From NCBI GenBank assembly GCA_008692225.1, contig VICG01000014.1, positions 1 to 64,000 on the forward strand: DNA of 64,000 nucleotides. The letters are read 5' to 3'. The notes below the pieces were generated by a model. That model searched no databases and was not told the DNA's origin. It saw nothing but the letters and a program-made list of their open reading frames with translations. A program made the translations under genes and the position numbers. Source of the stretch: Monilinia fructicola (lineage: Eukaryota; Ascomycota; Leotiomycetes; Helotiales; Sclerotiniaceae). This document shows, piece by piece, positions 1 through 59,815 of the stretch (positions are counted from its first letter, which is position 1; each line of letters starts with the position of its first letter).

Positions 1-93
1 CCTAACCCTAACCCTAACCCTAACCCTAACCCTAACCCTAACCCTAACCCTAACCCTAACCCTAACCCTAACCCTAACCCTAACCCTAACCCT
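1..93. repeat. Telomeric repeat (CCCTAA)n
   Basis: Uninterrupted CCCTAA hexamers run from the first base, the C-rich strand of the TTAGGG telomere used by filamentous ascomycetes. The orientation shows this is the left chromosome end, with genes lying to the right. Confidence 0.98.
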
Positions 94-120
94 AATCCTA
101 ATCCTAATCCTAATCCTAAT
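94..120. repeat. Variant telomeric repeat (CCTAAT)n
   Basis: At the proximal edge of the telomere the unit changes to CCTAAT, repeated about five times, before unique sequence starts. Every unit has the same C-to-T change, which fits either homogenised variant repeats or transitions in non-renewed telomeric DNA. Confidence 0.8.
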
Positions 121-270
121 CTTTTCCTAATCCCTATAGCGGTTACCCTAGTCGAAATGTATTTTCTTTTCCCAATCCTTGTAGCGGTTACTCTAGTCAA
201 AGGGTATTTTCTTTTCCCAATCCCTGTAGCGGTTACCCCTACGGGGTTAATACTTTCATTTTAAATATTA
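121..270. repeat. Telomere-adjacent ~46-bp tandem repeat, three units
   Basis: Three imperfect units carrying 'tagcggttac' and 'tattttcttttcc' begin near 132, 177 and 223. The same triad reappears, strongly AT-shifted, at about 4262-4400, again followed by 'gttaatactttcatttt'. A subtelomeric unit of about 4.1 kb was therefore duplicated. Confidence 0.7.
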
Positions 271-1048
271 TATTAATATTAATATTGAATAAATATTATT
301 AATATTAATTTAAATATTATTAATAAGTTTAATAATAATAAAGAAAATATTATTAATAACTTTAATTATAATAAATGGAATATTATTAATAATAATATAA
401 ATAATAAATAAAATAATGATTTTAATTAAAATAATATTAAAATAAATAATATTAATATTGAAATAAATAATATTAATATTTAAATAAATAATATTTAAAA
501 AATTAAAAATTAAAAAAAAAAAGAGGTATCTAAATTTAACCATTTAAAATATTTTATTAAGGTTAAATATTCTTTATTTTATTATTTATAATCGAATTTA
601 TATATATTAATATAAAATGAAACTTTTTCGTTTTTTATTAAAAGGTATTAAATCTAACAAATCAAAGGCTAATATATATACAGAGGATTATAAATCGTAT
701 TAATACGATTAGGATATCTTTATTTTTTATTAAGGTATTACCCTTTGAAAGTTTCATTTATATTTAATAGAATTAAATTAATAGAATTAGTATAAATGTA
801 TTTATAACAATTTATTATGTTTAAACAAATTAATTTATTTATTTTAAAATATATATTATACCTTTATAATAAATAATTTGAATTTTGAGATTTTAAAAAA
901 TATTATAAAGTCCCTTGTTTATTTTAATTTAATATTAGTATTTTTTAGATTTTTATAATATAAAATTAAATTAATATCAATATATAAAATATATTATTTA
1001 AAATGTAATATTTTTCGAAATACTATTATTCTATATTATTTTAATTAA

Positions 1049-1883
1049 ATCGTTTATTTTACTTTTTATTATTTTTTTTATTTAGCTAATATTTTATATT
1101 AAAAACGGCTATTTTGATATATTTATAATTTTATAAAAAATAAATATATATATTTTAAATTTTAAATAAAGCTTTTATATATAATTATTAATAAATTTTG
1201 AAAATCTTAAATTTTTGCAATTTTTTTATAAAAAGTAATAAAAGATTATAAAAAATCAAAATTTTCGGTTTTAGATTTATATGAAAATTATATACAAAAT
1301 TGAAATTTTGAAATAAATATTTATAATTTTTAAACAAAAATAATTAAAAATAATCTATAAATTTTTATAGAATTTATTAATTAATATATAATAAATAAAC
1401 TATTTAAAATATATATAATAATTTGAAATTTTTCAATAAATTAAAATTAAAAAATTCTTACCCAAAATTTTATTATTAAAATTTAAGAATCTATATTAAA
1501 CATTTATTATTAATAATAGTATATTATTAAAATAATATATTTAATTTAAATTAACTTTAAAATTCTTAAATTTTTTTTAGATTATTTTTAATTATTTTTA
1601 TTAAATAAATATAACTTTTTTTAAAGATTTTAATTTTGTATAAAATTTATATACAAATTGAAAATAAAAATTTTTATTTTTTATAATCTTTTATTACTTT
1701 TTATAAAAAAATCGCAAAAATTTAAAATTTTCAGAATTTATTAATAATTATATATAAAAGCTTTATTTAAAATTTAAAATATATATATTTATTTTTCGTA
1801 AAATTATAAATATATTAAAATAACCGTTTTTAGTATAAAATATTAACTAAATGAAAAAAGTGGTAAAAAGTAAAATAAGCGAT
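1049..1883. mobile_element. Foldback element with long inverted arms, flanked by TTAA
   Basis: The two halves are long inverted repeats. The segment reading in from 1049 (ATCGTTTATTTTACTTTT..) matches the reverse complement of the segment ending at 1883 (..AAAATAAGCGAT) with few mismatches for at least about 250 bp, with weaker pairing further inward. TTAA lies at 1045-1048 and 1884-1887. Sister copies of the host repeat near 3100 and 5160 lack the insert and read through as taattaatcat-like sequence, so this is a nested insertion. TTAA or TA is the likely target. The AT-rich interior has no reading frame, so it is non-autonomous. Confidence 0.7.
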
Positions 1884-4800
1884 TTAATCATTTTTATTTA
1901 TTTAATAATTCAAACTTATATAAATCCTTTAATATTCAAGATAATTTAAAATAAATTTTATATATAAATTATTTAAATAAATTTTTATAATATAAGAAAT
2001 TAAATTTTTAATTTATATAAAAATTTAAGCTAATTATAATAATAATAAATTCGAATTAAAATAAATATTTTGTTAAACTATCACCCTTTTATCAAAATGA
2101 TTTTACTTTATATACTATTAAAATATTAATATATTAAAATCTGTACAAATCCTTTAATTTTTAAAATAATTTAAAATAAATTGTATATATAAATAATTTA
2201 AATAAAGCTTTATAATATACAATTTTAAAATTTTAAATTATATTAATATTTAAGTGAATTATAATAATAATTAATTTGATTATTTTTCGCGGGCTATAAT
2301 CTTCCTTATCGAAATAAATCATTATTAATAATAATCCGCGAAAAAATTTATAAAATAATTATTAGATAATTTATAATAAATTTTATATATAAATTATTTA
2401 ATAAATCTTTATAATATGATATTTTAAATTTTTAATTTATATAAAGATTTAAGTTAATTATAATAATAATAAATTCAAATTAAAATAAATATTTTGTTAA
2501 ATTATTATTTTTTTATTGAAATAGCTTTATTTTATATATATTATTAAAATATTAATATATTAAAATCTATATAGATTCTTTAATTTTTAAAATAATTTTA
2601 AAAAATATTTATATATATAAATAATTCAAATAAAGTTTTATAATATATAATTTTTAAATTTTAAATTATATTAATATTTAAGCGAATTATAATAATAATT
2701 GATTTAATTATTTTTTTTATAAATTATCATTCCCCTTATCAAAATGTATTACTATTAATAATAGCCTACAAAAAAATTTATAAAATAATTATTAAAATAT
2801 TATTCCCTAAAAGTTCTATTTATATTTAATAAAATTAAACTAATAAAATCAATATAAATGTACCTACAATAATTTGTTATATTTGAATAAAATAGTTTAT
2901 TTATTTTGAAATATATATTATATTTTTATAATAAATAATTCAAATTTTAAAATTTTAAAAAATATTATAAGATCTTTTATTTATATTAATTTAAAATCAG
3001 CTTTTTTAAATTTTTATAATATAAAATTAAATTAATATTAATATATTAAAATATTATTTAAAATATATTATTTTTCGAAATATTATTATTTTATATTATT
3101 TTAACTAATTACTTTTTTATAATTAATAATTTAAACTAGTATAAATCCTTTAATTTTTGAGATAATTTAAAAGAAATTATATATATATAAAATTTTAATA
3201 AATTTTTATTATATAGTATTTCGAATTTTTAATTTATATAAAGATTTAAATTAATAAAAGTAAAAATAAATTTGAATGAAAATGAATATTTTGTTAAATT
3301 ATTATTTTTCTATCAAAATAGCTTTACTTTATATATTATTAAAATACTAATATATTAAAATTTGTATAGATTTTTTAATATTAAAGATAATTTAAAATAA
3401 ATTTTATATATAAAAAATTTAAATAAAGCTTTATAATATACAATTTTAAATTTTTAAATTATATTAATATTTAAGCAAATTATAATAATAATCAATTCGA
3501 TTATTTTTTGTAGATTATTATTTTCTTTATCAAAATAAACTATTATTAATAGTGACCCACGAAAAAATTTATAGAATAGTTATTAAATTTAAATTAATAA
3601 AAGTGAAAATAAATTCAAATGAAAATAAATATTTTATTAAATTATTATTCTCTTATCAAAATAGCTTTATTTTATATATCATCAAAATATTAATATATTA
3701 AAATTCGTATAGATTTTTTAATATTAAAAATAATTTAAAATAAATTTTATATATAAATAATTTAAATAAAGTTTTTATAATATATAATTTTAAATTTTTA
3801 AATTATATTAATATTTAAATGAATTATAATAGTAATTGATTTAACTATTTTTCGTGGGCTATTATCCTTTTTATCGAAATGGGCTATTATTAGTAATAGC
3901 CTATAAAAAAATTTATAGAATAATTATTAGATTTAAGCTAATAAAAGTAAAAATAAATTCAAATAAAAATGAATATTTTATTAAACTATTATTCCTTTAT
4001 TAAAATAGCTTTATTTTATATACCATCAAAATATTAATATATTAAAATTTGTATAAATCCTTTAATATTAAAGATAATTTAAAATAAATTTTATATATAA
4101 ATAATTTAAATAAAACTTTATAATATATAATTTTAAATTTTTAAATTATATTAATATTTAAGCAAATTATAATAATAATTGATTCAACTATTTTTTATAG
4201 ACTATTATCCTTTTTATTAAAATAAATCATTATTAATAGTAACTTACAAAAAAATCCATAAAATAGTTATTAAGTATAGCAATTACCCTTACAAAGAATA
4301 TTTTCTTTTTCAAATCCCTATAATGATTATCCCAATTGAGGGGCGTTTTCTTTTCTTAATCCCTATAACAGTTATTCTTATAAAGTTAATACTTTCATTT
4401 TAAATATTATATTAATATTCATAATTATAATAATAATAATAAATAATAATTGTAATAATAATTAAAAAAATATAATTAATAATTATAATAATTAAAATAA
4501 TATCAAAATAAAAAATATTAATATTTAAATAAATAATATTTAAATATAATATTTAAATAAATAATAAATAATATTTAAATAAATAATAAATAATATATTT
4601 AAATAAATAATAAATAATATTTAAATATTAAAAATTAAAAAAATAAAAGAGATATTTAAACATAATCACTTAAAATATAAAAATATTTCTTATTTTACCA
4701 TTTATAGTTGAACTTATATATATTAATGTAAAATAAAACTTTTTCATTTTTTATTAAAGAATATTAAATTTAACAAATTAAAGATCAATATATATATAAA

Positions 4801-7432
4801 GAATTACAAATTATATTAATATAATTAAAATACCCCTATCTTTTATTAAAGTATTATCCTCTAAAAGTTTCATTTATATTTAATAGAATTAAACTAATAA
4901 AATTAATATAAATGTACCCAAATAATTTATTATATTTGAATAAATTAGTTCACTTATTTTAAAATATATATTATACTTTTATAATAAATAATTCGAATTT
5001 TAAGATTTTAAAAAATATTATAAAACCCTCTATTTGTTTTAATTTAATATTAACTTTTTTTAAATTTTTATAATATAAAATTAAATTAATATTAATATAT
5101 AAAAAATATGATTTAAAATATAATATTTTTTAAAATATTACTACCTTATATCACTCTAATTAATCATTTTTATATACTTAATAATTCAAACCTATACAAA
5201 TCCTTTCATTTTCAAAATAATTTAAAATAAAATTTATATATGAATTATTTAAATAAATTTTTATAATATAAAATTTTAAATTTTTAATTTATATAAAGAT
5301 TTAAGCTAATTATAATAATAATAAATTCGAATTAAAATGAATATTTTGTTAAACTACCATCCCCCTATCGAAATGGCTTTACCCCATATACCATTAAAAT
5401 ACTAATATATTAAAATCTGTACAAATCCTTTAATTTTTGAGATAATTTAAAAAAAATTTTATATATAAATAATTTAAATAAAACTTTATAATATACGATT
5501 TAAAATTTTTAAATTATATTAATATTTAAGCGAATTATGATAATAGCTAATTCAACTATTTTTCGGCAGGTCACCATCCTCTCTTTAAAATAGGCCACCA
5601 CCGGTAGTAGTTTTATAGAATAATTATTAGGATTCCAAGTTTACTATATTATTTAAATAATTTATTAATTCCAATAAAATATACTTTAAATTATATATTC
5701 TAAATAAATTAATTAATTTTTATAAATTTTAAATTAAAATTTAATTAATAAAATTAAAATTTATATTAAATTTAATTAATATAAATATTTACTTTATTTT
5801 AATAATTTAATTTTTAAATTTTTTAAAATTTTAAATTAAAAAAAATTTATAATTAAATATTTAATTAAATAAAAAATTTAAATAATTAATATAAAATATT
5901 AATATATTATTAATAAATTAATTTAAATTTAAAATTTAAATTTATTTAAATATTTACTTTTTTAATTTTTATAATAAAAAATTAAATTAATATTAATATA
6001 TTAATAATAATATTTAAAATAACATATTTTTTAGAATCTTACTATCTTATATTACTTTAGCTAATAATTTTTATATAATTTATAATTTAAATTTATATAA
6101 ATCTATCAATATTCAAAATAATTTAAAATAAATTTTAGATATAAAAAACTTCAATAAATCTTTATAATATAATTCTTTAAATTTTTAATTTATATAAAAA
6201 ATTTAATCTAATTAAAATAATAACAAATTTGAATTAAAATAAATATTTTGTTAAACTATTACTCTTTTATTAAAATGGTTTTATTTTATATACTACTAAA
6301 ATATTAATATATTAAAATCTGTATAAATCCTTTCATATTTAAAATAAATTAAAATAAATTAAATAAAGCTTTATAATATACAATTTTAGATTTTTAATTT
6401 ATATAAATATTTAAGCAAATTATAATAATAACTGATTCAACTATTTTTTGCAGATTATTATCCCTTTTATTAAAATAAGTTATCATTAATAATAATCTAC
6501 GAAAAAATCTATAAAATAATTATTAAAATATTTTACCGAAATTAAATATTTCTTATTTTGTTATTTATAGCCAAATTTATATATATTAATATAAAATAAA
6601 ACTTTTTTGTTCTTAGTTAAAAAGTATTAAGTTTAACAAATTAAAAGTCAATATATATACAAAAGATTATAAATCATATTAATAATTTAATACAATTAAA
6701 ATACTTTTATTTTTTATTAAAATATTTTTTTAAGAGTTTTATTTATATTTATTAGAATTAAATTAATAAGATTAGTATAAATATATCTACAATAATTTAT
6801 TATATTTAAATAAAATAATTTATTTATTTTAAAATATATATTATACCTTTATAATAAATAATTTGAATTTTAAAATTTTTAAAAAATATTATAAAGTCTT
6901 TTATTCGTTTTAATTTAATATTAGCTTTTTTAGATTTTTAAAATATAAAATTAAGTTAATATTAATATATAAAAGATATTATTTAAAATATTATATTTTT
7001 TAAAATTCTATTACCTTATAATACTTTTATTTTAGTTAATCATTTTTATATAATTAATAATTCAAACTAATATAAATCCTTTAATTTTCAAGATGATTTA
7101 ATATAAATTTTATATATAAAAAATTTAAACAAATCTTTATTATATAGTATTTTAAATTTTAATTTATATCAAGATTTAAATTAATTAAAATGATAATAAA
7201 TTTGAATTTGAATAAATATTTTGTTAGGCCATCACACCCCTATCGAAATGGCTTTACCTCATATACCACTAAAAGAATAATATATTAAAATCCATACAAA
7301 TCCTTTAATTTTTAAGAAAATTTAAAAAGAATTTCATATATAAATAATTTAAATAAAGTTTTATAATATATGATTTTAAATTTTTAAATTATATTAATAT
7401 TTAAGCGAATTATAGTAGTGGCTAATTCAACT

Positions 7433-9143: not shown

Positions 9144-10066
9144 TGTACAACAGGGGCTATGATTCTATGGCTTCGGTTGGTATATCTTCAGATTAGAGAA
9201 GGTTTCGGGAAGGAGATCGAAGCTTTTCAATATGTGAAGATTCAAAAGAAATGGGAGAAATGACGCAAAGTTAATGAATGGATCGTAGTTCTAATTAGTA
9301 ACCTTACTCTGTAGATTATGTGTGTTGGTGTTGTACAGTATACGGAGTAATTTGTGTTGGGGCATACCCACTAGAACTAACTGGGAAGATATTGCTTAGC
9401 TGCAGATACAGCACAGCCTCATCATCTCTGCGCCTTGCACATACAGACTGTAGTTCTATCTGAATCATCAAGGAAACGAATGGAAAGAAGCGATGACAAG
9501 ACCGATATAATAGGTAAGGAGGTAGGGAGGTGCGGTTGGGTAAAATGAAATCTTTAGGTAAAAGGAATGGTAATTTTGAATCAGACTTGTACCTCTTGTC
9601 GCTCTCGTGAGTCTTCTCTTGGGTTGCTCTAATATGTATATGATCCCAACCTGGTAGATGAATGGCGCCTCTGACAGCACGGTGCTGTGAAATATCATGA
9701 TATATATATATGATATATTTGATGTGGATGATTGAGGTCATTTGCGAAAAGATACTAATGATCAAATGACGTTTTGTTGAATTTTGGACTGTCTATTAAC
9801 CTCAGATGCGCTACAAACAGAGAAGTTCGGATTTGATGTTGGTATTGATGTTGATGTTGATGTTGATGTTGATGTTGGTGTTGATATTGGTATCTGGTAT
9901 CTGGTATTTGGTATTTGGTATTCGGTATTGGGTAATGCTATTGCTATTGTGCTTACATAATCTAAATCCCACGAGCCAACGGGCACGGGCACCTCACCGT
10001 CACCCAGGGAACGGGCCATCATTTTTTCGGCTTATTCCTCAAAGTCCAACATCCTGATCACCAATA
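9144..10066. other. Intergenic, upstream of the coiled-coil gene; (GATGTT)n microsatellite
   Basis: No supported gene. A GATGTT-type microsatellite runs from about 9836 to 9890, followed by a degenerate GGTATCTGGTATTTGG-type tract to about 9935. Apparent reading frames here are simple-repeat artefacts. Confidence 0.6.
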
Positions 10067-10316
10067 CTTGGCGTTGTTTTGGGTCAATGCCGGGCTAAAA
10101 ATTAACTGAAAACGGAACTTATTTTAAAAAATTATAATAAATCAACATAGGCATTATAAATTATAAATAGAGATATACAGCATTATTAAGTTAAAAAATA
10201 AACGTTTAGTATATTTAAATTCTTGAAAATGGAAGTTTATAATATATAAAAAAGAATTTAAAAGATATACTATTTTGTAGATTTTTAGCCCGGCATTAAC
10301 CCAAAACAACGCCAAG
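10067..10316. mobile_element. 250-bp MITE with 36-bp TIRs and TA target duplication
   Basis: Terminal inverted repeats at 10067-10102 and 10281-10316 begin CTTGGCGTTGTTTTGGGT and match over 36 bp with one mismatch. TA flanks both ends (10065-10066 and 10317-10318), the target duplication of Tc1/mariner-class elements. The ~178-bp interior is AT-rich and non-coding. It must have been moved by a transposase elsewhere. Confidence 0.85.
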
Positions 10317-10318
10317 TA

Positions 10319-11580
10319 CTCAAGTACAGTACAAGTAGGTAAACCAAATACCCTGTCGTCTATTTAAGATCCTACATCAAGCGGAGGTCTTTGAGCCATA
10401 AAAATAAGATGATTAGTTAAGATACGAGATTCGGAATCCAGAGGTCTTTTCCCCATAGAACTATGCAGCTGAGTAGTTCCATTGCCTCCATGATGATATA
10501 TTGCAGCTTCCCAGGTTGCGGGGGACTGAATACTCTTCCAAAATCGGTATTAGACGGTTATTGGGCTGCATTGTAAGCATAGGCGGATGTAAGGTAACAA
10601 ATTGAAAAGCACCAGATAGACATTAGATATTTCGTTCTCGATATATATTGTTGCATGAGTATACCATGGTTCCCGGGTATGATATTGTCAACTAGCCTCT
10701 TATTTAATTCTATATAATATGAGTCCTGTCAGGTTTGTATGCCCATGTATCGTTCATTGTAACTCTCAAGATTGCTCTATCGATGATCAGCGACCATGCT
10801 ATTCCTCGTGATACTATGCATAAAGACATCAATACGTGCCCGTCTTGTCAATTTCGAAGTCCTCAAGAAGGATTCTCAAAGCCGCACAACGAGGTACAAT
10901 ATACCATACCAGGAGCACAGTTTGCTGGTGCTGGACGTATTTGATGGAATTGATCTCCCATCATTCAACTTCAGGATACATTCCATCAATAATTTTCTCT
11001 CCCTCAACTGGAGGATCCCAAAATTTTCAAAAAATTCCCATGCGAAGATTGGGATTGGCACTCATGACAAGTGTGGAATGCTATAGCCACAAATTGAATT
11101 CTGTTTGGCATTTGTTAAACAGCACATTCAGTTCCTGTTTGGTACCTCCAGATTGTGCCAGTGACTGCTGGTAGCCCGACTCCTTCTTGGAGTATTGAGT
11201 CTCAATTCAGGTATATGAAGGGCTTGAATGCGGAATATTGCCTTGAGAATATTCACATTATCTAATGCTCGGGTAGATATATCGCAGTGTTATATCCATA
11301 TCTACACCAGGCTCGACTACTTTTCCTGGGGATCGGGAAAGGTCTGTCGCATTAGCTTGGATTTTGGATGAATGGCAGAATGCTATTAGTCGCCATATTC
11401 TAATGACAGGTATTCTCAGGTTCAAACAAATTGTTAAGCTCGTGAAGACAGATCTGACGCAATTTCTTTCGATGCTGTAATTCCTGTACCACATATCCAA
11501 GAATCATCCGTAACCTTGTTGAGCGTTGGATCTTTATTAACAATGAACACAGTATCTTAGTAGCTACCTAGTACCTATAT
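10319..11580. other. Region without a supported gene
   Basis: Several short overlapping frames lie at 10735-11174 (plus) and 11258-11500 (minus). They share no recognisable motif and conflict with one another. The right part may hold decayed upstream exons of the adjoining amidohydrolase relic. Confidence 0.4.
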
Positions 11581-48270: not shown

Positions 48271-48278
48271 ATTGATTT
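48271..48278. repeat. Candidate 8-bp target site duplication (left), ATTGATTT
   Basis: The same octamer occurs at 57162-57169, just outside the right TIR. An 8-bp duplication suits Mutator-like elements (8-11 bp). Because the motif is AT-rich, chance cannot be excluded. Confidence 0.55.
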
Positions 48279-48286
48279 GAGTCGAC

Positions 48287-48313
48287 AGGTCGGATGGACG
48301 TCCATCTGAGCTC
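48287..48313. repeat. Left TIR of the 8.9-kb element
   Basis: 27 bp matching 57127-57153 exactly in complement. It contains a self-palindrome, GATGGACGTCCATC (48293-48306), so each end is itself dyad-symmetric, a likely transposase binding site. Confidence 0.9.
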
Positions 48314-48887
48314 CCGTGTACTCGGAAAAACGTCGGGTGGACTAGTGGGGCGCGGCTGACCTTTTGCGAAATGGGTCCGCAACCTCTTCATAATTTATGC
48401 AGAACGTCCGATCGTCGATCTCATTGAACAGTAGATTTGCGTGATTGAATTGATCGTACCTCTTCAATTGATTCTAATCATAGCCGTATGGAAACGTTTA
48501 ATAAACGTTTAATAAAACGTTTTCAAAACGTTTCCAAAACGTTTATGCCCACCTAATTCTCAAATGTTATATGTCATCTATAAAGCAAAAAAGAGATTCG
48601 AGAATTAATTAATATTGCAAGCAACCTCAATTGAATCATTTATCTACCTTGATAATTAACGTTGTATCAATTCGAGTATTGCTTTTTTTCGTTTATATTA
48701 TCTGATATTTCCCACCGAATTTTTATTCCAACTACAACTACTCTCGCTTACAACTTTTTTTCGATCTCCCCATCAGTGCTCTATCAATTCATTTAGAAAT
48801 CACTTACTAAACGTTTTCAAAACGTTTAGAAAACGTTTACAAATCGATTTAAATTCTCACTTATAGATACTTGATTTTTTTTTCGAT

Positions 48888-50218
48888 ATGGCATCTGGAC
48901 CTAATGCAACTGTGAATACTCTTGTTTATTCAACGAAGGATCAACAAGCAGACGCATATCTTCGTAGTAACCCTCGTCCCTCTGGATGTTCTTTGTGGAA
49001 GTGTGATGAAGTAAGTGTTATTCAATCTCAAAACGTTTAATAAACGTTTATTAAACGTTTTCAAATCGCTTTTTGTAGTATATTTATTAACATTTATTAA
49101 TTATCTTAGAATGATGTTTATCAAGTGCCTGCGGGAGAAATATTTTGTCGTGCACCTTGGGGTCCACGCAATGAAATTTGTCCAAAACTCGTATGTTATC
49201 ATTGAATATAAACGTTTTCTAAACGTTTTCTAAACGTTTTCAAATCATTTAGATCAAATACAATGCTACCAACAATCTTCGTCTTCATTTGAAGCAAAAA
49301 CATTCGGATCTTTCGTTTGATAAGGGGAAAAAGGGTAGTACGAGAATGGTCAGTACTCATTATTAAATAATTTTTAAATAACTTTAGTATTGTTCTTTCT
49401 ATTCGTTTTGAAAACGTTTTCTAATCGTTTTTAAAACGTTTGCAGGAAGATCAAGCAGTCGCTCGGGAAGCATTCGCCCAATGCTATCGTGCTCACCTTG
49501 AGTACGAGAAGTCAATTGGTGAAGTAAGACAAGAAACTGATGATAGATTGATCTCTCAAAACGTACGTGATCTCACTATTATTTTTCAACCTTTTTGAAA
49601 GCATTTTATATAAACGTTTTCTAATCATTTTTTAAACGTTTTCTAATCATTTTATAATCATTTTGAAAACGTTTTCTAAACGTTTAGAAAACGTTTTCAC
49701 TTTCCAACATTTATTAATTTTATATGCAGAGTCATTTCTCTCCATCAAAGAAATTGCGAAAGAGAAAACGTGATGAACGCAATCACGAGCAAGCACGCGT
49801 TCGAGAGGAAGCAGAGCAAATTGCATCTGCTGGACCTTCTCGTGTGGTGAAAGATTGCCCTGTACGCAAGTATAAGGGAGCTATGAGAGTAAGTTTAAAC
49901 GTTTTCAAAATGGTTAGAAAACGTTTAGAAAAACGTTTATTAAACGTTTTCGAGATAAGTTAACTAACGTTTGCTAATTGTTTATCAATTGTTTAGCCCA
50001 ACGTAACGCGAATGCGAGCTGGCTGTGGGTTTAAACCCAATCAAAAATGTGATCATTGTGTTGCTGCTTCGCGTGATCGTTGTCCTGATGTTAGTGCACA
50101 GGATTGGACTAACAATGGAGGTTGTATAATTCTTTTGAATTATAGGAAACCTTCAAATAGAGTCGACGATGTTGAAGATGAAGATGAAAACGATGATGAA
50201 GAGGGTAGTGTTGAATGA
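48888..50218 (+). CDS. Transposon-encoded zinc-finger protein A
   Basis: Six exons: 48888-49010, 49110-49190, 49253-49348, 49446-49562, 49730-49888 and 49997-50218. They give 265 residues with no disruption, and all five introns are phase 0. The N-terminal half reads CSLWKC, then CRAPWG, C..KL and NNLRLHLKQKH, a Cys/His finger similar in spacing to BED or C2H2 fingers. A basic segment follows (KKLRKRKRDERNHEQARVRE), then a C-terminal Cys cluster (CGFKPNQKCDHCVAASRDRC) and an acidic tail. The basic stretch and two metal sites suggest a nuclear DNA-binding protein. It is paralogous to the next gene. Every intron carries two to five AAACGTTT copies. I propose it binds this motif; this is inference. 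Confidence 0.8.
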
Positions 50219-50924
50219 GTTAGATTGGGATTTTTCTTTATATTTGGGAAATATTCTTTTTGTTACTTCGAAATATTTTCAACTTGAATCCGAAATGTTT
50301 TTTAAACGTTTTCTAATCATTTTATAAACGTTTTCAAAACGTTTAGAAAACGTTTACACAAGCAATTTTTTCATATTAACGACCTTTACGAATTCTTCAA
50401 CTAGGTAGCATAATAATAAAAAAATATATGGTATTGAAAGAATTTTATTTAATAGTCATTTTGGTATGTATACAAATAAAGATCTCAGGTTAAATTCACC
50501 AATCTTATTATAAAGAAGTATTAAAAAATATTAATCAAACACTTATAAAATATCAAAACAATACTTATAGAGTACTATATAAACACTTATATAGCACCAT
50601 ACAAACACTAGAAATCATCGATCATAATATAAAAAAAAAGACAAACAATATACCTACAAATTATTTAAAAAACGTTCTCTAATCATTTTCTAAACATTTC
50701 ATAAACGTTTTCGAATCGTTTAATAAACGTTTTCTAAATGTTTTCTTTCTACATATCTCCTCAATCTCCATTGTTTAATTTACATTCTTCGGTCATGGAT
50801 ATACGTTTATCCTTTCGCTAAGATATCCACTTTATTTTTGTATTAAAACTATAGTATTTCCACATCGTGAATCGTTCATTCTCTCTTCTAACTTTACTTT
50901 CAATCGTTTAAATCAAAATACATT
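50219..50924. promoter_or_regulatory. Intergenic between zinc-finger genes A and B, with AAACGTTT copies
   Basis: AAACGTTT clusters at 50300-50355 and 50700-50730 flank an AT-rich core. This is the expected terminator of A and promoter of B. Variants AAACATTT and AAATGTTT occur near 50693 and 50737. Confidence 0.6.
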
Positions 50925-52904
50925 ATGTCTACTACTTACCCTTCGTCTTTTTCTCAACGACCAAATCATTGTCCTCCATATGAAGAGATCAAATGCAATG
51001 TAATGTTACCCTATTCTAAATCAATTCATTATTAATATATTTATAGGATTCGCAATGTACCAATAAATCAAAATGTGTTAAAATCTACCCTGGGGAAAGG
51101 TTTTGTCGAGTTCAAATTGATGAAGATGGAGAATTGTGCACTACAAATGTATGTAACTCAATTCATTTCGAATTCATTTTCTAAACGTTTTTCAATCGTT
51201 TTCTAATCGTTTTCAAAACATTTCCAAATCGTTTTTGATTCGTTCTATAGCTAATTCTTGATCAGCATCAATATAAACAAACTAATGCTTTACTTCTACA
51301 TTTGCGTAAAGTTCATAAAGAGGAAGTTCACTTTCATTCCGTTCAAGGTGTACCAAATACGGTATGTTGATTATTGATAAATAATTATAATCAACCTTTT
51401 TTTAATTTTATTCTTAATAGGCAATGAAAAATGCAGCATATAAGCATTTCAAAGCTGTATATGCTTATATTCAACAAAACACCAAAGAGAAAAGATAAAA
51501 ATATTGAAACTAATGATTCAATCAACGAATCGTCGAAGGTATCTATTAAAAAACAATCCGAAAATGTTTTCAAAACGATTAGAAAACGTTTTCAAAACGA
51601 TTAGAAAACGTTTTCAAAACGATTAGAAAACGTTTTCGAATCATTTTTCATACATTTTCTGATATCATTAAAATAGAATTCTCTACACTCAAAAAGCTCG
51701 AAGAGGAAACCTCCTACTCGACGTAAATTGAATAAAAGTCGACAACAACAACGCGCTGAATCTCCAATACTTTCTAGTGGAGATCAAACTCAAGAATCAG
51801 GACCACCAGAACCAGAGATTCCTGCATCCCCTCAAGATAACATTCCAATCCCCTCAGAAATCGATTCGGAATCGACTTCAAAACGTTCTGAAAACGTTTT
51901 GACATCACAGCCTACGGACCCTTCAACTACTACTACTTCCTCTACATTAACACCACATTCAACAACACAACTACCTCAATCTGCTCCGAATCCTACTAGC
52001 AAAACGTTAGAAAAGCGAAAAAATGATTCCTCTGAAGAGAATAGTACTAATAATCATGAAATAACAACTACTGAAAGTTCTATTCTAGTAAGAATTCTAT
52101 TCAAAACCTTTTGAAAACGTTTAAAAACGTTTAAAAAACGTTTTAAGAAAACGTTTAAAGAAACGTTTAAAAAAGGTTTATGCTAACTTATACAAAAAAG
52201 AAAAAACAACGAATCAATCCATCTACACAAAAATTTATTGATATTTGTAATGATATCGATAGTGCACATCCTCCCACTCCTCCTAAACTTACTGTAAGAT
52301 TGTTCCGTTTATTTTTCCCTCAGTTTGCTCGATGAAAGAATTCATTCTAATACGTTTCTTTATTATTATTAGCCAAATACTAGGCCTCGATTAGATACAA
52401 AGATGAGATGGAATGCAATTGGTGGACCATTCGATCTACCATATTATAATCATTTGCCCAACGTTACTGAAATGTTAAAAATGCTTAAAAGGAGCTCGAA
52501 ATGTTGTATGAATTGTTCATCAAGACCATCAGGATGCAATCTTAAATATAAATCAGGGAAAAGCTGGAAGGTTTGCAAAAGTAAGTTGATATCTACTCAA
52601 ATTGAAAACGTTTTGAAAGCATTTTCAAAACGTTTACTAAATGTTTTCAATAGAATGTCCATGTCCTAATTGGCATGCACCATATTTCGTATCTGATGCA
52701 TGCGATGATATTAGAATGTTTAAACAGCCTGTTGATGAGAATGGGAATATGATTCGATTTCATAAAACGAATAATACTGATACTGATGTTGATTCTGATG
52801 CTGGTAGTGGTAGTGGTAATGTTAGTGTTATTAGTATTAGTGGTAGTGGTAGTGGTAGTAGTAGTGTTAACACTACTAGTAGTGTAGGTGATAGTGATAA
52901 TTAA
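50925..52904 (+). CDS. Transposon-encoded zinc-finger protein B (one apparent +1 frameshift)
   Basis: Eight exons: 50925-50999, 51047-51148, 51251-51361, 51421-51538, 51677-52087, 52201-52293, 52373-52580 and 52654-52904. Exon 4 is 118 nt between phase-0 boundaries, so it carries one extra base, probably in the A4 run at 51476-51479. Without it the product is about 455 residues. Architecture mirrors protein A: an N-terminal Cys/His finger (CNDSQCTNKSKC..RFCRVQ..LLLHLRKVHKEE), a Lys/Arg-rich stretch, a long Ser/Thr/Pro linker, and a C-terminal Cys cluster (CCMNCSSRPSGC..CKKCPCPNWH) with a Gly/Ser/Thr tail. The first six introns are phase 0 and the last is phase 1. Likely a nuclear DNA-binding partner of the element. 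Confidence 0.7.
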
Positions 52905-53121
52905 ATAATTGATATTATTATTTTCAATCATTTATATATTGATCGTTATGTTCTAATATTATATCAATCACTTTTGTAGAATTTAGGTTGAAAAATAGAT
53001 CGCATTGCTATTCGAAATTGCTTTCTAAACGTTTAGAAAACGATTCGAAAACGTTTGATAAATGAATTGCTCTTAAAATAAAATAAACTACTAGGAATTT
53101 ATCATTGCTTTTGAAGTGATA

Positions 53122-56100
53122 TTATGTACATTGTAGTTCCCTGATTTCTCGATCCCTTCGTGCTATTTCTATTTGTCTTTCTTTGAGTTCCAATTCCTTA
53201 TTTGCAAGTTGTATTCTTAAATCAGCTTGTCTGACTGATTCTTCCAATGTAGCAGTTATATTGCTTTGTTGTTGTTGTATTGGAACAGATTGCTGTCTAC
53301 GTGATCTTCTTATTCTAGGTGGTCGGCCGCTACTACTATGATTATAATCAGAATTAGATAATTGAGAAGATTGATGATGAATCTGTTGCTCTTCAGGAAT
53401 ATCGTCAGATAACAACAGATTGTTTTCTTGTGCAAATTGTTGATTCTTCTTTTGTTTTAATACTAAATGAATTATTAGCGAATGGAATTAAATCATTTAG
53501 AAAACGTTTAGAAAACGTTTAGAAAACGTTTTCTAAACGTTTATTAAACGTTTATCATTAGATTAAAATACTCACAACTTCTTTTTCGCCTTTCATTTAT
53601 TCGATCATACACAGAACGACCTCGCCATGAGTTTGTAACCCCTAATATTGCATTATCTCGACCACCAAAATTGATTCGAAGATCATGCTTTCGCCCTCTA
53701 GTAAATAATTGTTAGATTGATAGTAAAACGTTTAGAAAACGTTTTTGAAAACGTTTAAAAAACACTTACTTTTCGATCGAAATAGCTAATGATAACGCTT
53801 TGCCATAACGATTAGTTTGAGCTCCGCTTGCCTCTACTGCATTTGTATTTCGAATGCAATTTCGAAATGTTGCTTTATCCCCTAAAAAGAATTGCTCGTT
53901 TAAACCCGAAATAATCCAATCCCATTCTTTATGAGTGCACCATCCCATCATATCTGGACTTAAAAATAAAACTGTTAATAAACGTTTTCTAAACGTTTTC
54001 TAAACGTTTAAAGATAGAGACGTGAAAACCTACTAATCCTGTCGAACACATTCTAATAATGCATAGCAATCGTTTTTTGATTTTGCAATACTTATATCTT
54101 TTAGAAGACCTGCATAACCATCATTTGCAATGATACTATTATCAATTCCTCTTTGATAATGTACCAAGCAATAAATCATAGTAGATTGAATGTGAAATTG
54201 CCATGGACGATGCTGTGGATCAATATCACTTAAGAAACAACCCCAACCTAAATCATTATTGATATATTAGTTAAAAATTCGTTGAATATTGATTAAACGT
54301 TTTCTAAACGTTTAAAAAACGTTTTCTAAACGTTTAGAAAATGAAATTTGCTTACCATTTGCTTGTTTTGCACACATATCCACCACAATTGCTTTAATTC
54401 CATTCCCATGAATATGATGAAAGTGAAGAGGTGGTTGATCAGCATTTTCCAATGCTTCATTAATACATCGATACCAATTTTTGAAAAGTTGGTAGAAACC
54501 CTCAGCAGTTTCAACGTCGGTATATACCCGTGAAAGCTGAGTTACTATAAAATGGTTAATATATAATCAAAAAACATTTATAAAGTATTTTCGAAGTGAA
54601 TATACTACATACATTGATCAATGTTTTCTTGCTCTATATATTGAGCAAAAATGACTTCACGCCATTTGCCAGCTGTACGTTTATAACTGGTATCTATTTG
54701 AAAAGTATCGAGATTTTTCAAATATAATGCTTGATCCAAATAAAAACAATGAATTTCTCGACGATCACCATAATTATACATTCGTCGAATGTATTGTTGT
54801 GTTCCGAATTTATTGTAATGATTAGCTCTATAATCATACCATACACCTAATAATATTAGTTAATAGATTTGAAAACGTTTAGAAAACGTTTAGAAAACGT
54901 TTATTAAACGTTTTGAATATATTACTTACCAGCCCATTCAACACCGTAAGGATACCTATCAATCTGTTCCAGCATTGCGATTGCTTGAATTTTTGATTTG
55001 TTATTCCATGCAGGATGTGCATTCATTAACTGCTCGATATTCAACTCTTGACAGAGTCGATTCATTCCTTCACTTGCAATGATATCACCTACAAATTGCA
55101 TTAATTTTTCGTTTTTCTTGTTAAATAAATATAAAATATAAATTACTTACAATACCCACGTCCAAAGTTGATAAAGTTTTTAACTCGATCAACAATTAAT
55201 TCAGTTAATAAAGCAGGACTTCGGGATGGTGGTGGAGGCACATGTGTATGTTCACCGTGAGAAGTGATCAGAATATAAGGGTGGTCTTGAAGATCGATTG
55301 GAACAAATGATATTGAATGTTACATCGCATTCAATACGTTGCAATGGTTGATTTCCATCATGATGAGGAACACCTAAAAAACTATTAATAAATAAGATAC
55401 AAAAACGAGTTGAAAACGATGTGAAAACGATTTAAAAACGTTTTGAAAACGTTTTCAATATAAGTTAAAAAATGAGTTAAAAATGAGTTAAAAATGAGTT
55501 AAGTAGAAGTTGAAGACGTACCACAATCACTTCGACGTGTTTGAGTACCAAATACTTGAAAGCATTCAGATGGTTGATTAGGGTGAAATCCGTAAGTTAA
55601 TAAATCCATCATATATTCCCAATTGATTGGTCTTGTTGGATTGATAGTATGATAATAATGTTGAAAGAATTCATTATTATTAGTTATTTTATTGCAGCAT
55701 ATATAATAACGTGCATCACCATTGAAGTTCTAATCAAAAATCAGCTTCAACACACTTCGAAAACGTTTTTAAAACGTTTAGAATGTGATTAAACTTACTG
55801 TAGTATTGAAATGTCGAACTTCTGGTACTCCATCGCATAGTATTGTCTCCCCAGTATTAGGATCAATTTTGTAGAATCCACAGCCATACTTTTCAAAATG
55901 CTTTTTAACTGTATGATAAGTTCTAAAGAGGATGAGTTAGAAAATAGTAATAAAAAACGTATTCTAAACGTTTTCGAAATATTTTCAAAACGTTTTCATA
56001 ATGATACATACGTTAATGTTTCTTTTTGTCCCAAACCAGCATTATATTCCTCAGCAAAAACACGTTGACTAGAATGTGTTCGAATCCGTTTGTCTTCCCA

Positions 56101-56805
56101 ATCGCTTGATGTCCAACTAGTATGCGAACTAGAAATATAATTTGATGCATGAAGACATGCATTTATTCCGCTGCATTTTTTGATTGTACGTTTAACCTGA
56201 ATACCTCCCATCCAATGTGAAATGGTAGTTTTCCTGTGAAGTGATCGATTTGTATGTGTTGAATATTGAATCTAATTATAATTTATTAACAAAATGCTTT
56301 AAAAATGCTTTTAAAAATGCTTTCGAAACGTTTTCTAAATGGTTTCTAAACGTTTTGAAAACATTTAGGATATACATACCTTTGAACATACTTTATCTGC
56401 TTGCTCAGGTGTCAATTCATGTACATTGATTAAATTGCCAATTCCTCGTTCTGAAGTAGGGGGATATAATGGGCAATCAATCACATAATTGATTTGTTCA
56501 ACACTTAATGGTTCTTGTGCTCTATCTGAAAGTAGAAATATTGGATTCTCTTGAAGATTATCTATTGCTTCCTATTTATAAACGATTAGAAAACGTTTTA
56601 GAAACGAGTTAAAAATGTGTTCAAATAATCTTACTTGAATATTTTCATCCAAAGGATATAATTCTGGTAGTTCATCCTCAACAATTCTTCTTCCAACTAA
56701 TTCGGTATCCCAATTAGAATATAAATGTTCTCCTTCTGGTAGGGTGATACCTAATTCGTGTATTGTAGCAAGACAAGAACGACGTAACCAAGTGATAGGA
56801 TGCAT
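53122..56805 (-). CDS. MULE-like DDE transposase (13 exons, one apparent +1 frameshift)
   Basis: ATG 56805, with exons (descending) 56805-56635, 56571-56380, 56271-56012, 55922-55799, 55729-55522, 55373-55151, 55088-54930, 54846-54613, 54544-54356, 54247-54034, 53958-53770, 53697-53576 and 53462-53122. Exon 6 has one extra base near 55310, splitting DVTFNI from ILITSHGEHTHVPPPP. Corrected, it is about 874 residues. Catalytic candidates are D497 (DTFQIDTSYKR), D579 (AIVVDMCAKQ) and E700 (NTNAVEASGAQTNRYGKALS), with a C-x-x-H motif (IYCLVHYQRG) between the last two, as in Mutator-like transposases. The C-terminus ends in a Gln-rich region and a coiled coil (ELKERQIEIARRDREIREL). It is convergent with zinc-finger genes A and B. 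Most of the 12 introns contain AAACGTTT, and the 68-bp one at 54545-54612 does not. Confidence 0.8.
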
Positions 56806-57126
56806 TTTGAAAAGAGAACAATAAATGAAAGAAAGAAAGGAAAAATCTATAAATGAAAGGAATAAGAATCATTATTTAAACGTTTTCGAAATGTTTTCTA
56901 AACGTTTGATAAACGTGTTAAAAAAGATAAATAAATACGGTGGTTGGGAGTGGATCAATTGTATAATAATGCTATCTAAATGTTTTCTAAACGTTTTCGA
57001 AACGTTTAGAACTACGATGTGGATCCATATTGCACAAAGTTATGAATTCGGCAAAAGGTCGGGTGGACCTGCGCGACGTTTTGCGGTTGACCTTTTTTTT
57101 TTAAGTGATGCCCCACAGGTCCATAT
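56806..57126. promoter_or_regulatory. Transposase promoter and right subterminal region
   Basis: AAACGTTT copies at about 56878-56915 and 56985-57010 lie upstream of the transposase ATG. Inside the right TIR, 57058-57095 repeats the GTCGGGTGGAC..GGTTGACC subterminal block seen in the left end at 48333-48363. Confidence 0.6.
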
Positions 57127-57153
57127 GAGCTCAGATGGACGTCCATCCGACCT
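57127..57153. repeat. Right TIR of the 8.9-kb element
   Basis: Perfect complement of 48287-48313, including the GATGGACGTCCATC palindrome. Confidence 0.9.
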
Positions 57154-57161
57154 ACATACCT

Positions 57162-57169
57162 ATTGATTT
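57162..57169. repeat. Candidate target site duplication (right), ATTGATTT
   Basis: Matches 48271-48278 and fixes the probable element length at 8,883 bp. Confidence 0.55.
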
Positions 57170-59815
57170 CACCATGTACTGTACTCACTTACTGTACGGA
57201 ATAATAATATGAATTTAGACGATGGGGATGAAGGGGGTAGTTGAAATAACATGTGAATGTGAATAGATGCATGAATATCCATAGGTATATGAATGAATGT
57301 ACTCGGTAAGTATATTTGTATAAACGTATATGGATATGTACACTGTATAGGTAAATATATCAATGAAGGAATGAGTGATTATATATGATTATATATGATT
57401 ATATATATGATTTTTATATGGTTATCCGCATAAACATAGAGTATAAATGAATAAATAGATACATGTAAACGAATCCATTAGTCATCCCCCTTTACATCGA
57501 TATTATAGCCCTAAAAGAAAGAGCTAGAACGATGAGAATTGAAGTGAAAGTTACAGGAACTGACTAATGTACAAGAAATACGTTATTCTGATCAAAGCTT
57601 TCATCGTTATAACTATACTGATTAGATGATAGTTGAGTGGGCATCCACTTCCCAGGAATCAAGATATCCATGGATAACTTCACTAATGGATCGCGCATAG
57701 AATAAGTAAATAAAATATAGATGTTTATGAGTATAGTATCTAATTACTAATTAGTCTGTAAAATATGTAACAGTTCATTCATTCATCAACCGGCAATTGA
57801 TCGCTACTATAAAATAAACTTGAAATCGACTTTAAATTAACTGTAAGTTGACTTCGAATACAACTCTAAATAGAACCTAAATTACAACCTAAAGATGATT
57901 TACATTTGTACTACTCGAGTAGATACTATATAATCTTATTATATACTAGATACTGTATAAGATATACTATATAAGATATACTATATATATACGATATACG
58001 AAACATTTAGTATCGTAATCTTAGTATAGATAAGTATAATTCGAAACATATCATGAGGTTCTAGTTTGTAGATATCCAGGTAAAACCCGGTATTATTTTG
58101 ATTCAAAAGAAAAAGGAAGAGAGTTAAAACATTTAGTATCTATGTAGTATCGTATCTATGTACCTAAGTAGTATCTACGGAGTATGTTGTATCCATCTAA
58201 TTAGTATCTAATTAGTTCTAGTTAACATCATCTAATATAAGTATTTGGAATATCTAAAAGCAAACACGTCTAAGCTTTTATATCGGATACCAAAGTAATT
58301 AACATACAGAATTACATACTTATGTATAATACCTAGGAACCTGTCTGCTTTCCTAATTCTTTAGGGCTATTCTAGTAATGTCTATACGGAGTATATACTT
58401 AATTACTACTTACTACTTACTACTTACTACTTACTACTAACTACTTACTACTTACTACTTACTTACTACTTACTACTTACTACTTACTACTTACTACTTA
58501 CTACTTACTACTTACTACTTACTACTTACTACTTACTACTTTACTACTTTACTACTACTTACTATTTACTACTTACTACTTACTACTTACTACTGTAGTA
58601 CAATGATACAACGATGTCATCGTGATCAGATCCAATCAAATCTACGATATATGCGAATTTAGCGAATAACGCGAAAGAAATAGCAACGGATCATTTTGCT
58701 TTTATTGCTTCATCTTTACGGATTCCTCTTTACTTCACACGCTGATATGGAATTTAAGAGGATCCATAGATCGACATTCTTTGATTTTCTCCTAAAGTTA
58801 GTAGATTATTCATCAATTGCATTCAAGTTCAAGGGATGGATGAATATTCGAAATTGATGATGGAGGATTGGAGGATGGGAGAATTGGATGATTGAATGAT
58901 TGGATGGATGATTGGTAATTCATATGGTTACTCCAATGAAATCTCAATATACAATGATAATTTATTGATTTCTTTTATTCCATCCAATCAAATCACGACA
59001 TAATGGGATACAACCTAATGCAATCTAATCTAATCTCATCCAATCGAATTGAATCTACAATTGCATTGATTATATGGTACGGAGTACAGAGTATCCATAG
59101 ATGTTTTCTGTTTTCTGTTTTCTGTTTTCATTTTCCTTTTTTGAGGATCCATTGAGAGAACTGGAAGCTGGAGGTTTTTACATCTTGTAGCCTTTTTCAA
59201 TCTTCTACTCGAATACATCTTTCAGCCTTGCAGCCTTGCAGCCTTTAACCTTTCAGCCTTCTATATCCTTCAGCCTTCCACATCCTCCAGCCTTTTAAAC
59301 CATCTTCAGCCTTCTACATCTTCCAATCCTTTCAGCCTTCTACATCCCACAGCCTTTTATATCTCTTCATTCTGATTGGTTGATTGTAGCCTTACTTTCC
59401 CCTCTTTAGAAAACTGTCTGTTACTCAAAAAATAATAATATTTTCTCTCATATGCGTATCATTTTCATTTTCACGCACATTTCTACTTGAGTACTCACGT
59501 TCCCATTTCAGGATCAACAACCAGAAACAAAAAAATACAACTCAACACAAAATCCATCAAAAACCGTTCAAAACCCCTCGTTCCTGTCGTCGTCGTCGTC
59601 GTCGTCGTCGTCACTGATCTACGACCGACCGACTGACTATACATCTGCGCACATTCAATTGACTATACCAAAGTCATCTGTATCGCGGTTGATCCACGAA
59701 GAGATTAAAACTTTAACCGCCTATACTCAAAGCTGTCCAAGAAAAAAAGTCACAAATCCTATCAACTATACCAATCTCGTCCAAGAAAGACATCAAAGAG
59801 AGCCTTGGAGCAGTG

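Follow-up and report, generated by a model that had tools for sequence, protein, structure and literature searches.

Phased palindrome arrays in the introns and intergenic DNA of a Monilinia fructicola transposon suggest a candidate self-recognition system with a VANDAL-like layout

Some plant transposons encode a protein that binds many short subterminal motifs of the element itself, as do TnpA of Spm/En and the Ac transposase, and TnpA has been linked to demethylation of the element promoter. In Arabidopsis, VANDAL21 and VANDAL6 carry the accessory gene VANC beside the transposase, and a short motif is repeated in their own intronic, intergenic and terminal non-coding DNA, in tandem repeats that turn over rapidly and are family-specific (PMC5735166, PMC10398659). 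VANC21 binds YAGTATTAY in these three kinds of VANDAL sequence and VANC proteins carry DUF1985/DUF287 regions (PMC5735166), while coding-region probes without the motif are bound poorly (PMC5735166, PMC10398659). VANDALs belong to the Mutator superfamily, with terminal inverted repeats that are absent or short and degenerate (PMC6446971). In Muta1, a Mutator-like element of Aedes aegypti, target duplications are 8-9 bp long and a 12-bp subterminal tandem repeat is present 9 times, its copies separated by 3-4 bp; the non-autonomous derivatives differ in how many repeats they have (PMC5225508). Here we describe an 8883-bp DNA transposon at positions 48279-57161 of the window, a 64,000-nucleotide stretch that forms the start of contig C14 (VICG01000014.1) of the fungus M. 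fructicola (44.03 Mb in 20 contigs; GCA_008692225.1). The non-coding DNA of this element is saturated with the 8-bp palindrome AAACGTTT, and our searches of the open-licence PubMed Central (PMC) literature yielded no prior description of the element or of the motif in fungi. We put the probability that the array is a self-recognition site for an element-encoded protein, most likely one or both of two accessory proteins (A and B), at about 0.5. The original prediction, made from the letters of the window, had proposed a VANDAL-like system of this kind, and its interpretation as a whole is partly supported.

The window contains 79 copies of AAACGTTT, 77 of which lie inside the element between 48492 and 57007 (Table 1). 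Dinucleotide shuffles of the window gave a mean of 1.79 and a maximum of 6, with none of 100 reaching 79. For the 4,088 bp of non-coding DNA in the element, an order-2 model predicts approximately 0.5 copies when the motifs are masked and 6.7 when it is trained with the motifs included. Our gene models place genes A and B on the plus strand and gene T on the minus strand, with 24 introns; by these models 56 motifs are intronic, 20 intergenic and 1 exonic, corresponding to densities of 25.5, 10.6 and 0.21 per kb. If one mismatch is allowed, the density is 25.9 per kb in non-coding DNA versus 1.0 per kb in exons. Motifs occur in 19 of the 24 introns (A 5/5, B 4/7, T 10/12), that is, in all three genes and on both strands, and introns with a motif measure 62-167 bp against 47-79 bp for the five without (p 0.006). 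The 77 motifs form 27 separate blocks. Flanks shared between arrays amount to matches of only 10-13 bp, so it does not look as if the arrays had been copied from one another along with their flanks. These results confirm a motif-saturated transposon with arrays almost confined to non-coding DNA. They agree with the hand count of about 75 in the original prediction, with its expectation of less than one copy and with the stated concentration in introns and intergenic DNA (76 of 77). Both proposed ends are exact to the base, flanked by the 8-bp duplication ATTGATTT; elsewhere in the window, two copies of the motif (at 8917 and 10200) were found instead of one.

The palindromes follow an 11-bp register. 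Of the gaps between consecutive motifs, 50 are <60 bp, and these are mostly 11 bp (31) or 22 bp (12); four of the other seven measure 12 bp and the rest 10, 13 and 33 bp. Of the 154 sites lying 11 bp to either side of an exact motif, 113 (73%) resemble it with no more than two mismatches; the share is 45% at 22 bp, compared with 0-8% at 8-10, 12-14, 20, 21, 23 and 24 bp (nearest the register, 6% at 12 bp and 0-3% at 8, 9, 10, 13 and 14 bp). The 3-bp spacer is variable, with seven kinds among 31 pairs after merging strands, and is often NGA or TCN (21/31 in the window copy). Genome-wide, pairs of AAACGTTT number 481 at spacing 11, 357 at spacing 22 and 0 at spacing 16, which served as the off-register control, whereas pairs of the reversed palindrome TTTGCAAA number 0, 0 and 1, respectively. 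Given that a turn of B-DNA takes approximately 10.5 bp, spacings of 11 and 22 bp put the sites roughly on one face of the helix, and the natural reading of the register would be a dimeric protein on each palindrome with neighbours bound cooperatively. The original prediction was right on palindrome copies and density and did not mention the register or the arrays in non-autonomous relatives.

Ten full-length copies of the element were found in the genome (the window copy W, C3, C5a, C5b, C7, C11, C6, C4, C8 and C16). Together they make up approximately 0.2% of the genome and hold 706 of its 2050 copies of AAACGTTT, with 49-78 motifs in each; the reversed palindrome occurs 1506 times. Judged by this share of the motifs, an equal density in unrelated AT-rich DNA, which would have spoken against the original prediction, was not seen. 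Nor was any copy found with the genes but without arrays, a weak test because the copies are near-identical or point-mutated versions of one element. The left-end pattern of the family, with up to 3 mismatches, occurs at 64 places genome-wide (44 perfect, 20 imperfect), of which 18 were read as elements (10 full-length, 8 non-autonomous), and motifs were assigned by assuming element lengths of 9 kb for full copies and 2.5 kb for others. By this assignment, 85 of the 86 places with AAACGTTT-TGA/TCA-AAACGTTT lie downstream of a family left end, as do all 50 places among the matches listed, up to contig C3, for the pair pattern with any spacer. Seen from the ends, at least 41 of 64 are followed by an exact motif pair (perfect at least 37/44, imperfect at least 4/20); these are lower bounds because they count exact pairs among the matches listed, and C16 was scored as lacking a pair despite its 49 motifs. 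Contigs C1, C2 and C3 to 1334653 are fully covered by a relaxed three-unit pattern in which changes by repeat-induced point mutation (RIP) are allowed. Of the 17 left ends there, 10 have an array by this pattern, including two imperfect ends whose arrays are mutated.

The eight non-autonomous elements read (L035-L041 and one beside full copy C11) are 765-1153 bp long, and all share the family termini around AT-rich interiors. BLAST of the full element against L035-L041 gives one match of >150 bp, namely 193 bp at the right end of one locus. Each of the eight has two or three arrays and a total of 5-12 motifs; these begin 168-180 bp inside the left end and stop 160-202 bp short of the right end, so that all carry short tandem repeats at fixed subterminal places, as Muta1-type elements do. 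CpG makes up 86 of 959 dinucleotides in their arrays versus 8 of 4342 outside. The fixed placement and the near absence of CpG from the rest of the interior are not due to the way in which these loci were chosen. Arrays in the 11-bp register are nearly restricted to this transposon family and occur in its gene-free derivatives.

A perfect 8-bp target duplication flanks eight of the ten full copies (all except C5b and C8) and six of the eight non-autonomous ones. Seven full copies (all except C4, C8 and C16) are 99.9% identical by substitution, each differing from their majority by 0-6 substitutions and 13-104 inserted or deleted bases, and 182 of these 312 indel bases adjoin the same base. As the assembly is of PacBio-Illumina type (PMC6795239), the few substitutions and the indels beside the same base suggest that residual assembly errors lie behind many single-base indels; such errors would disrupt automatic annotation, and we do not conclude that the genes are dead. 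The other three copies carry RIP, mild in C4 and heavy in C8 and C16. C16 has 731 C-to-T and 721 G-to-A substitutions (1452 in all) and zero others, and C8 has 1226 of these two types and 3 others. At the protein level, the T matches in C8 and C16 (approximately 50-70% identity) were initially taken for divergent families and hence for deep conservation, but the DNA shows RIP, so the two copies are not independent evidence of motif conservation.

Among nine copies translated with our gene models, A is open in W and C3, B in C5b and T fully in none. The 3' borders of two of the 24 introns (B intron 5 and the T intron at 53958-54033) lack AG as modelled and are uncertain by a few bases. Annotated M. 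fructicola proteins bear out these models in part. P0002 agrees with the gene A product except at one exon end, where it is shorter; in P0003-P0005, exons of A and B are combined, skipped or fused; P0001, taken from a different M. fructicola annotation, equals the C-terminal part of T at 100% and is open there. A and B are shown to be paralogues by their sequences (BLASTP E 1e-6, 26% identity over 160 residues), and four of their intron positions agree within one residue. These matching introns differ in their motif counts (3/0, 3/1, 2/0 and 5/3), so the arrays of today probably arose after the introns. With motifs masked, each of the four intron pairs gives a somewhat better alignment than shuffled sequence, which shared splice signals or degenerate units can explain and from which we draw nothing. 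Both proteins contain a Cys/Cys...His/His pattern and a second Cys-rich stretch. The paralogy of the two zinc-finger proteins in the original prediction therefore stands, and their naming as zinc fingers comes down to Cys/His spacing.

T is presumed to be a DDE transposase. Judged by eye, its residues IDTSYKR, TDVETAEGF, IVVDMC and CLVH may follow the order of Mutator-like DDE enzymes, which have a DDE triad with C-x2-H, and T presumably also resembles a transposase-like family of mushroom-forming fungi. The MULE-like (Mutator-like element) transposase of the original prediction was not borne out: at E up to 10, PF10551 (MULE) matches neither T, which was split in two for the scan, nor anything else in the genome, searched exon by exon. 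Pfam scans of A, B and T in five pieces, NCBIfam scans of P0001-P0003 and a PDB sequence search with P0001 gave no match above cut-off. A match of T to DH_ALS2 (E 1.8e-5, 25.5 bits versus a cut-off of 31.2) was judged spurious, and the single-sequence AlphaFold2 model of P0001 has a mean predicted local distance difference test (pLDDT) score of 40, too low to indicate a fold.

The binding sites of Spm/En and Ac are subterminal, whereas the arrays here sit in most introns. The closer likeness is to VANDAL and VANC, with which this element shares accessory genes beside a transposase and a tandemly repeated, family-specific short motif in its own introns, intergenic and terminal DNA. It differs in being fungal and in having a palindromic 8-bp core in an 11-bp helical register, short terminal inverted repeats (the inner 27 bp being the same at both ends), and a transposase that is not detectably Mutator-like. 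A and B are Cys/His-rich paralogues, and DUF1985/DUF287 were not found in either (Pfam-A scan with B in two pieces, E up to 10). The element thus works like a VANDAL system in layout and is not a VANDAL by the features tested; the VANDAL-like layout of the original prediction is supported and its Mutator-like membership is not. The 8-bp target duplication falls within the 8-10 bp of MULEs (PMC5225508). With Muta1, the element has in common a palindromic terminal motif, tandem subterminal repeats and non-autonomous members that keep a variable repeat number, but the Muta1 repeats are part of its terminal repeats and the arrays described here fill the whole interior, including introns (PMC5225508). 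Fungal DNA transposons with TET/JBP dioxygenases likewise have an accessory gene proposed to counter silencing; they differ in relying on enzymatic base modification, and self-recognition motif arrays go unmentioned in the accessible part of that report (PMC12730594).

The mechanism that we envisage starts from an element-encoded, sequence-specific protein, most likely A and/or B, that would bind AAACGTTT. The perfect palindromy of the site makes a dimer probable, and binding would be cooperative along one helix face, between units 11 or 22 bp apart. Arrays are present in each of the three genes, in most of the introns and in the subterminal DNA at either end, so that such a protein could coat and mark the copies of the family, and the element genes would stay transcribed, or the copies would be kept from silent chromatin, as VANC does for VANDAL. 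That a dedicated protein binds the array is likely. That this protein is A and/or B is plausible, given that these are extra genes whose products look like DNA-binding proteins. An activating or anti-silencing effect is plausible by analogy with VANC21, and it is possible, by analogy with Muta1, that the subterminal arrays also aid transposition.

M. fructicola has RID and DIM-2 homologues and RIP (PMC8959702), so there is something for the element to evade. In the heavily mutated copies, CpG within motifs is mutated less often than other CpG (C8 32/154 versus 200/464, Fisher p 5e-7; C16 36/154 versus 234/464, Fisher p 2e-9). However, AAACG outside motifs is equally spared (C8 10/39, p 0.52; C16 9/39, p 1.0), so a sequence-context effect of RIP explains the low mutation of the motif. 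A control matched on the 3' side gives no difference in C8 (11/39, p 0.39) and keeps one in C16 (17/39, p 0.016), which we do not count as protection. Shielding of the motif from RIP is therefore rejected, since it finds no support once the 5' context is matched. Separately, CpG preceded by AAA is mutated less by RIP in C8 and C16. In C4 (L029, L030) the light RIP is strand-biased, with 84 C-to-T versus 204 G-to-A in window orientation, and its CpA mutation is regional, reaching 34-42% in three adjoining 500-bp blocks and 0-21% in the other 15.

Several observations weigh against self-recognition by A and/or B. The putative zinc fingers of A and B are read from Cys/His spacing. The best Pfam match of A is zf-BED at E 0.12, below the cut-off, and B has none, and the single-sequence AlphaFold2 model of P0002 (A) has a mean pLDDT of 42 and no usable fold. 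The arrays give no visible protection from RIP: in all three mutated copies, CpA mutation in non-coding DNA is not lower near arrays than far from them. Among 5.8 billion proteins, the only matches were M. fructicola proteins: 1 for T, the same in each of its searches (1855 and 94 candidates), and 4 for A (220 candidates). Because hits must have 5-residue words in common with the query, this search may overlook distant relatives. With no relatives of T or A found outside M. fructicola, co-variation of motif and protein cannot be shown, and the superfamily of T, a presumed DDE enzyme, is open to doubt. Not every left end has an array: among the matches listed, 7 of the 44 perfect ends and 16 of the 20 imperfect ones are without an exact pair, and the relaxed pattern finds no array at 7 of 17 ends, two of them perfect and only 117 bp apart. 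L035-L041 were chosen through the first motif search, so the presence of motifs in seven of the eight non-autonomous elements is ascertainment. Finally, these elements are explained equally well if the arrays serve transposition.

This last possibility is the main rival. The arrays would be subterminal-type sites, as in Muta1, at which the transposase or a cofactor assembles a transposition complex; they would have spread into introns as a side effect of repeat expansion, or because the element benefits from having many sites. The fixed subterminal distances in all eight non-autonomous elements fit this account, and the subterminal tandem repeats and non-autonomous derivatives of Muta1 provide a precedent (PMC5225508). 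Most arrays, however, lie far from the ends, in 19 introns and the inner intergenic DNA of an 8.9-kb element. Interior sites are unneeded for end synapsis, which leaves the intronic arrays less well explained, and two extra genes for DNA-binding-like proteins would have no role, so we regard the account as rather unlikely.

We see a smaller chance that the element has recruited, for its expression, a host transcription or chromatin factor which recognizes AAACGTTT. The 1,344 copies outside the full-length elements (2050 minus 706, non-autonomous members included) mean that such a factor could exist, but next to 1506 copies of the reversed palindrome they give no sign of enrichment outside the family, and only 1 of 86 places with a pair in register is unassigned to it. 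The sole match to the string AAACGTTT in the accessible open-licence PMC text is a paper on a bacterial regulator. Slightly less probable again is that no protein is involved, the arrays being passive tandem repeats from slippage, or AT-rich phased DNA that bends or repels nucleosomes. Tandem arrays of variable unit number would suit this, and phased A/T tracts can bend DNA, but an 8-bp core containing CpG recurs while the 3-bp spacer varies, the units in the separate blocks are degenerate rather than identical, the CpG cores persist in otherwise almost CpG-free non-autonomous interiors, and pure slippage would not be expected to avoid exons. That most of the motifs are intronic (56/77) could point to a splicing element, a role that we reject as very improbable: the motif is palindromic and also intergenic, five introns lack it, it lies anywhere from 4 to 62 nt from the 3' splice site, a branch-like site distinct from it is found at 13-29 nt in 22 of 24 introns, and its presence in elements too short for genes largely refutes the idea.

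If the self-recognition reading is extended, the element may represent an independently evolved VANC-like anti-silencing system, in which dimeric zinc-finger paralogues on phased palindromes keep the family from DIM-2/H3K9 silent chromatin and are parasitised by non-autonomous elements that retain the ends, the arrays and little else. This would be the first fungal and first non-plant case as far as we have searched, and by its analogy with VANC it is a tentative proposal that we hold to be doubtful. As far as our literature searches show, the novelty lies in the organism, the design of the site and the type of protein; the layout itself has a precedent in the VANDALs of Arabidopsis. If the self-recognition reading is right, transposon self-recognition by sequence would be a repeatable solution, reached with another protein type and transposase, and not a plant speciality. 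It would also offer a simple system, with one 8-bp site, one register, two candidate readers, a host that has RID and DIM-2 homologues, and short non-autonomous elements as natural minimal targets, and a compact family-specific DNA-binding array for fungal chromatin work. Even if the arrays serve transposition only, our searches found no earlier fungal example of a transposon with operator-like arrays in most of its introns.

Table 1. Features of the transposon in the window copy. Positions refer to the window, and arrays consist of AAACGTTT.
Feature	Position	Strand	Remarks
Target-site duplication, left copy	48271-48278		8 bp, ATTGATTT
Left terminal inverted repeat	48279-48313	+	inner 27 bp (48287-48313) identical to right end; holds palindrome GATGGACGTCCATC
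Array, left subterminal	48492-48544		5 motifs
Array, upstream of gene A	48809-48838		3 motifs
Gene A	48888-50218	+	6 exons (48888-49010, 49110-49190, 49253-49348, 49446-49562, 49730-49888, 49997-50218); 265 aa, Cys/His-rich; open in window copy
Array, A intron 1	49031-49060		3 motifs
Array, A intron 2	49210-49239		3 motifs
Array, A intron 3	49412-49441		2 motifs
Array, A intron 4	49612-49696		5 motifs
Array, A intron 5	49897-49949		4 motifs
Array, between A and B	50304-50355		4 motifs
Array, between A and B	50703-50732		2 motifs
Gene B	50925-52904	+	8-exon model, ~456 aa, A paralogue; frame interrupted in window copy, open in C5b
Single motif, B intron 2	51183-51190		degenerate units in register
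Array, B intron 4	51584-51635		3 motifs at 22 bp, degenerate units between
Sole exonic motif, gene B	51892-51899		
Array, B intron 5	52115-52168		5 motifs
Array, B intron 7	52606-52635		2 motifs
Array, between B and T	53027-53056		2 motifs
Gene T	53122-56805	-	13-exon model, ~874 aa, presumed DDE transposase; frame interrupted in window copy
Array, T intron	53502-53553		5 motifs
Array, T intron	53726-53756		3 motifs
Array, T intron	53980-54009		3 motifs
Array, T intron	54295-54335		4 motifs
Array, T intron	54873-54913		4 motifs
Array, T intron	55436-55454		2 motifs
Array, T intron	55761-55779		2 motifs
Array, T intron	55966-55995		2 motifs
Array, T intron	56326-56355		2 motifs
Single motif, T intron	56591-56598		
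Array, upstream of T	56878-56907		2 motifs
Array, right subterminal	56989-57007		2 motifs
Right terminal inverted repeat	57127-57161	-	
Target-site duplication, right copy	57162-57169		8 bp, ATTGATTT

Two arrangements of family ends were seen elsewhere in the genome. The non-autonomous member beside full copy C11 (L025 2275-3151; C11 101274-102150) stands head to head with it, the two left ends lying approximately 90 bp apart and each element having its own target duplication. On C2, two perfect left ends (1455208 and 1455325) share a strand and are separated by 117 bp; the matches listed nearby include no motif array, and the ends are possibly solo or nested. Within the window, a short inverted-repeat element at approximately 10050-10350, with ends like TTGGCGTTGTTTTGGG, is unrelated to the family and contains one AAACGTTT, which is compatible with chance. 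Positions 1-7000 have 9-18% GC and probably represent RIP-exhausted or subtelomeric DNA; they are without AAACGTTT, an absence that is uninformative because base composition predicts well under one copy there. To the right of the element are two short-period tandem repeats of one type each, TACTTACTAC-like at 58372-58630 and CCTTTCAGCC-like at 59249-59363.

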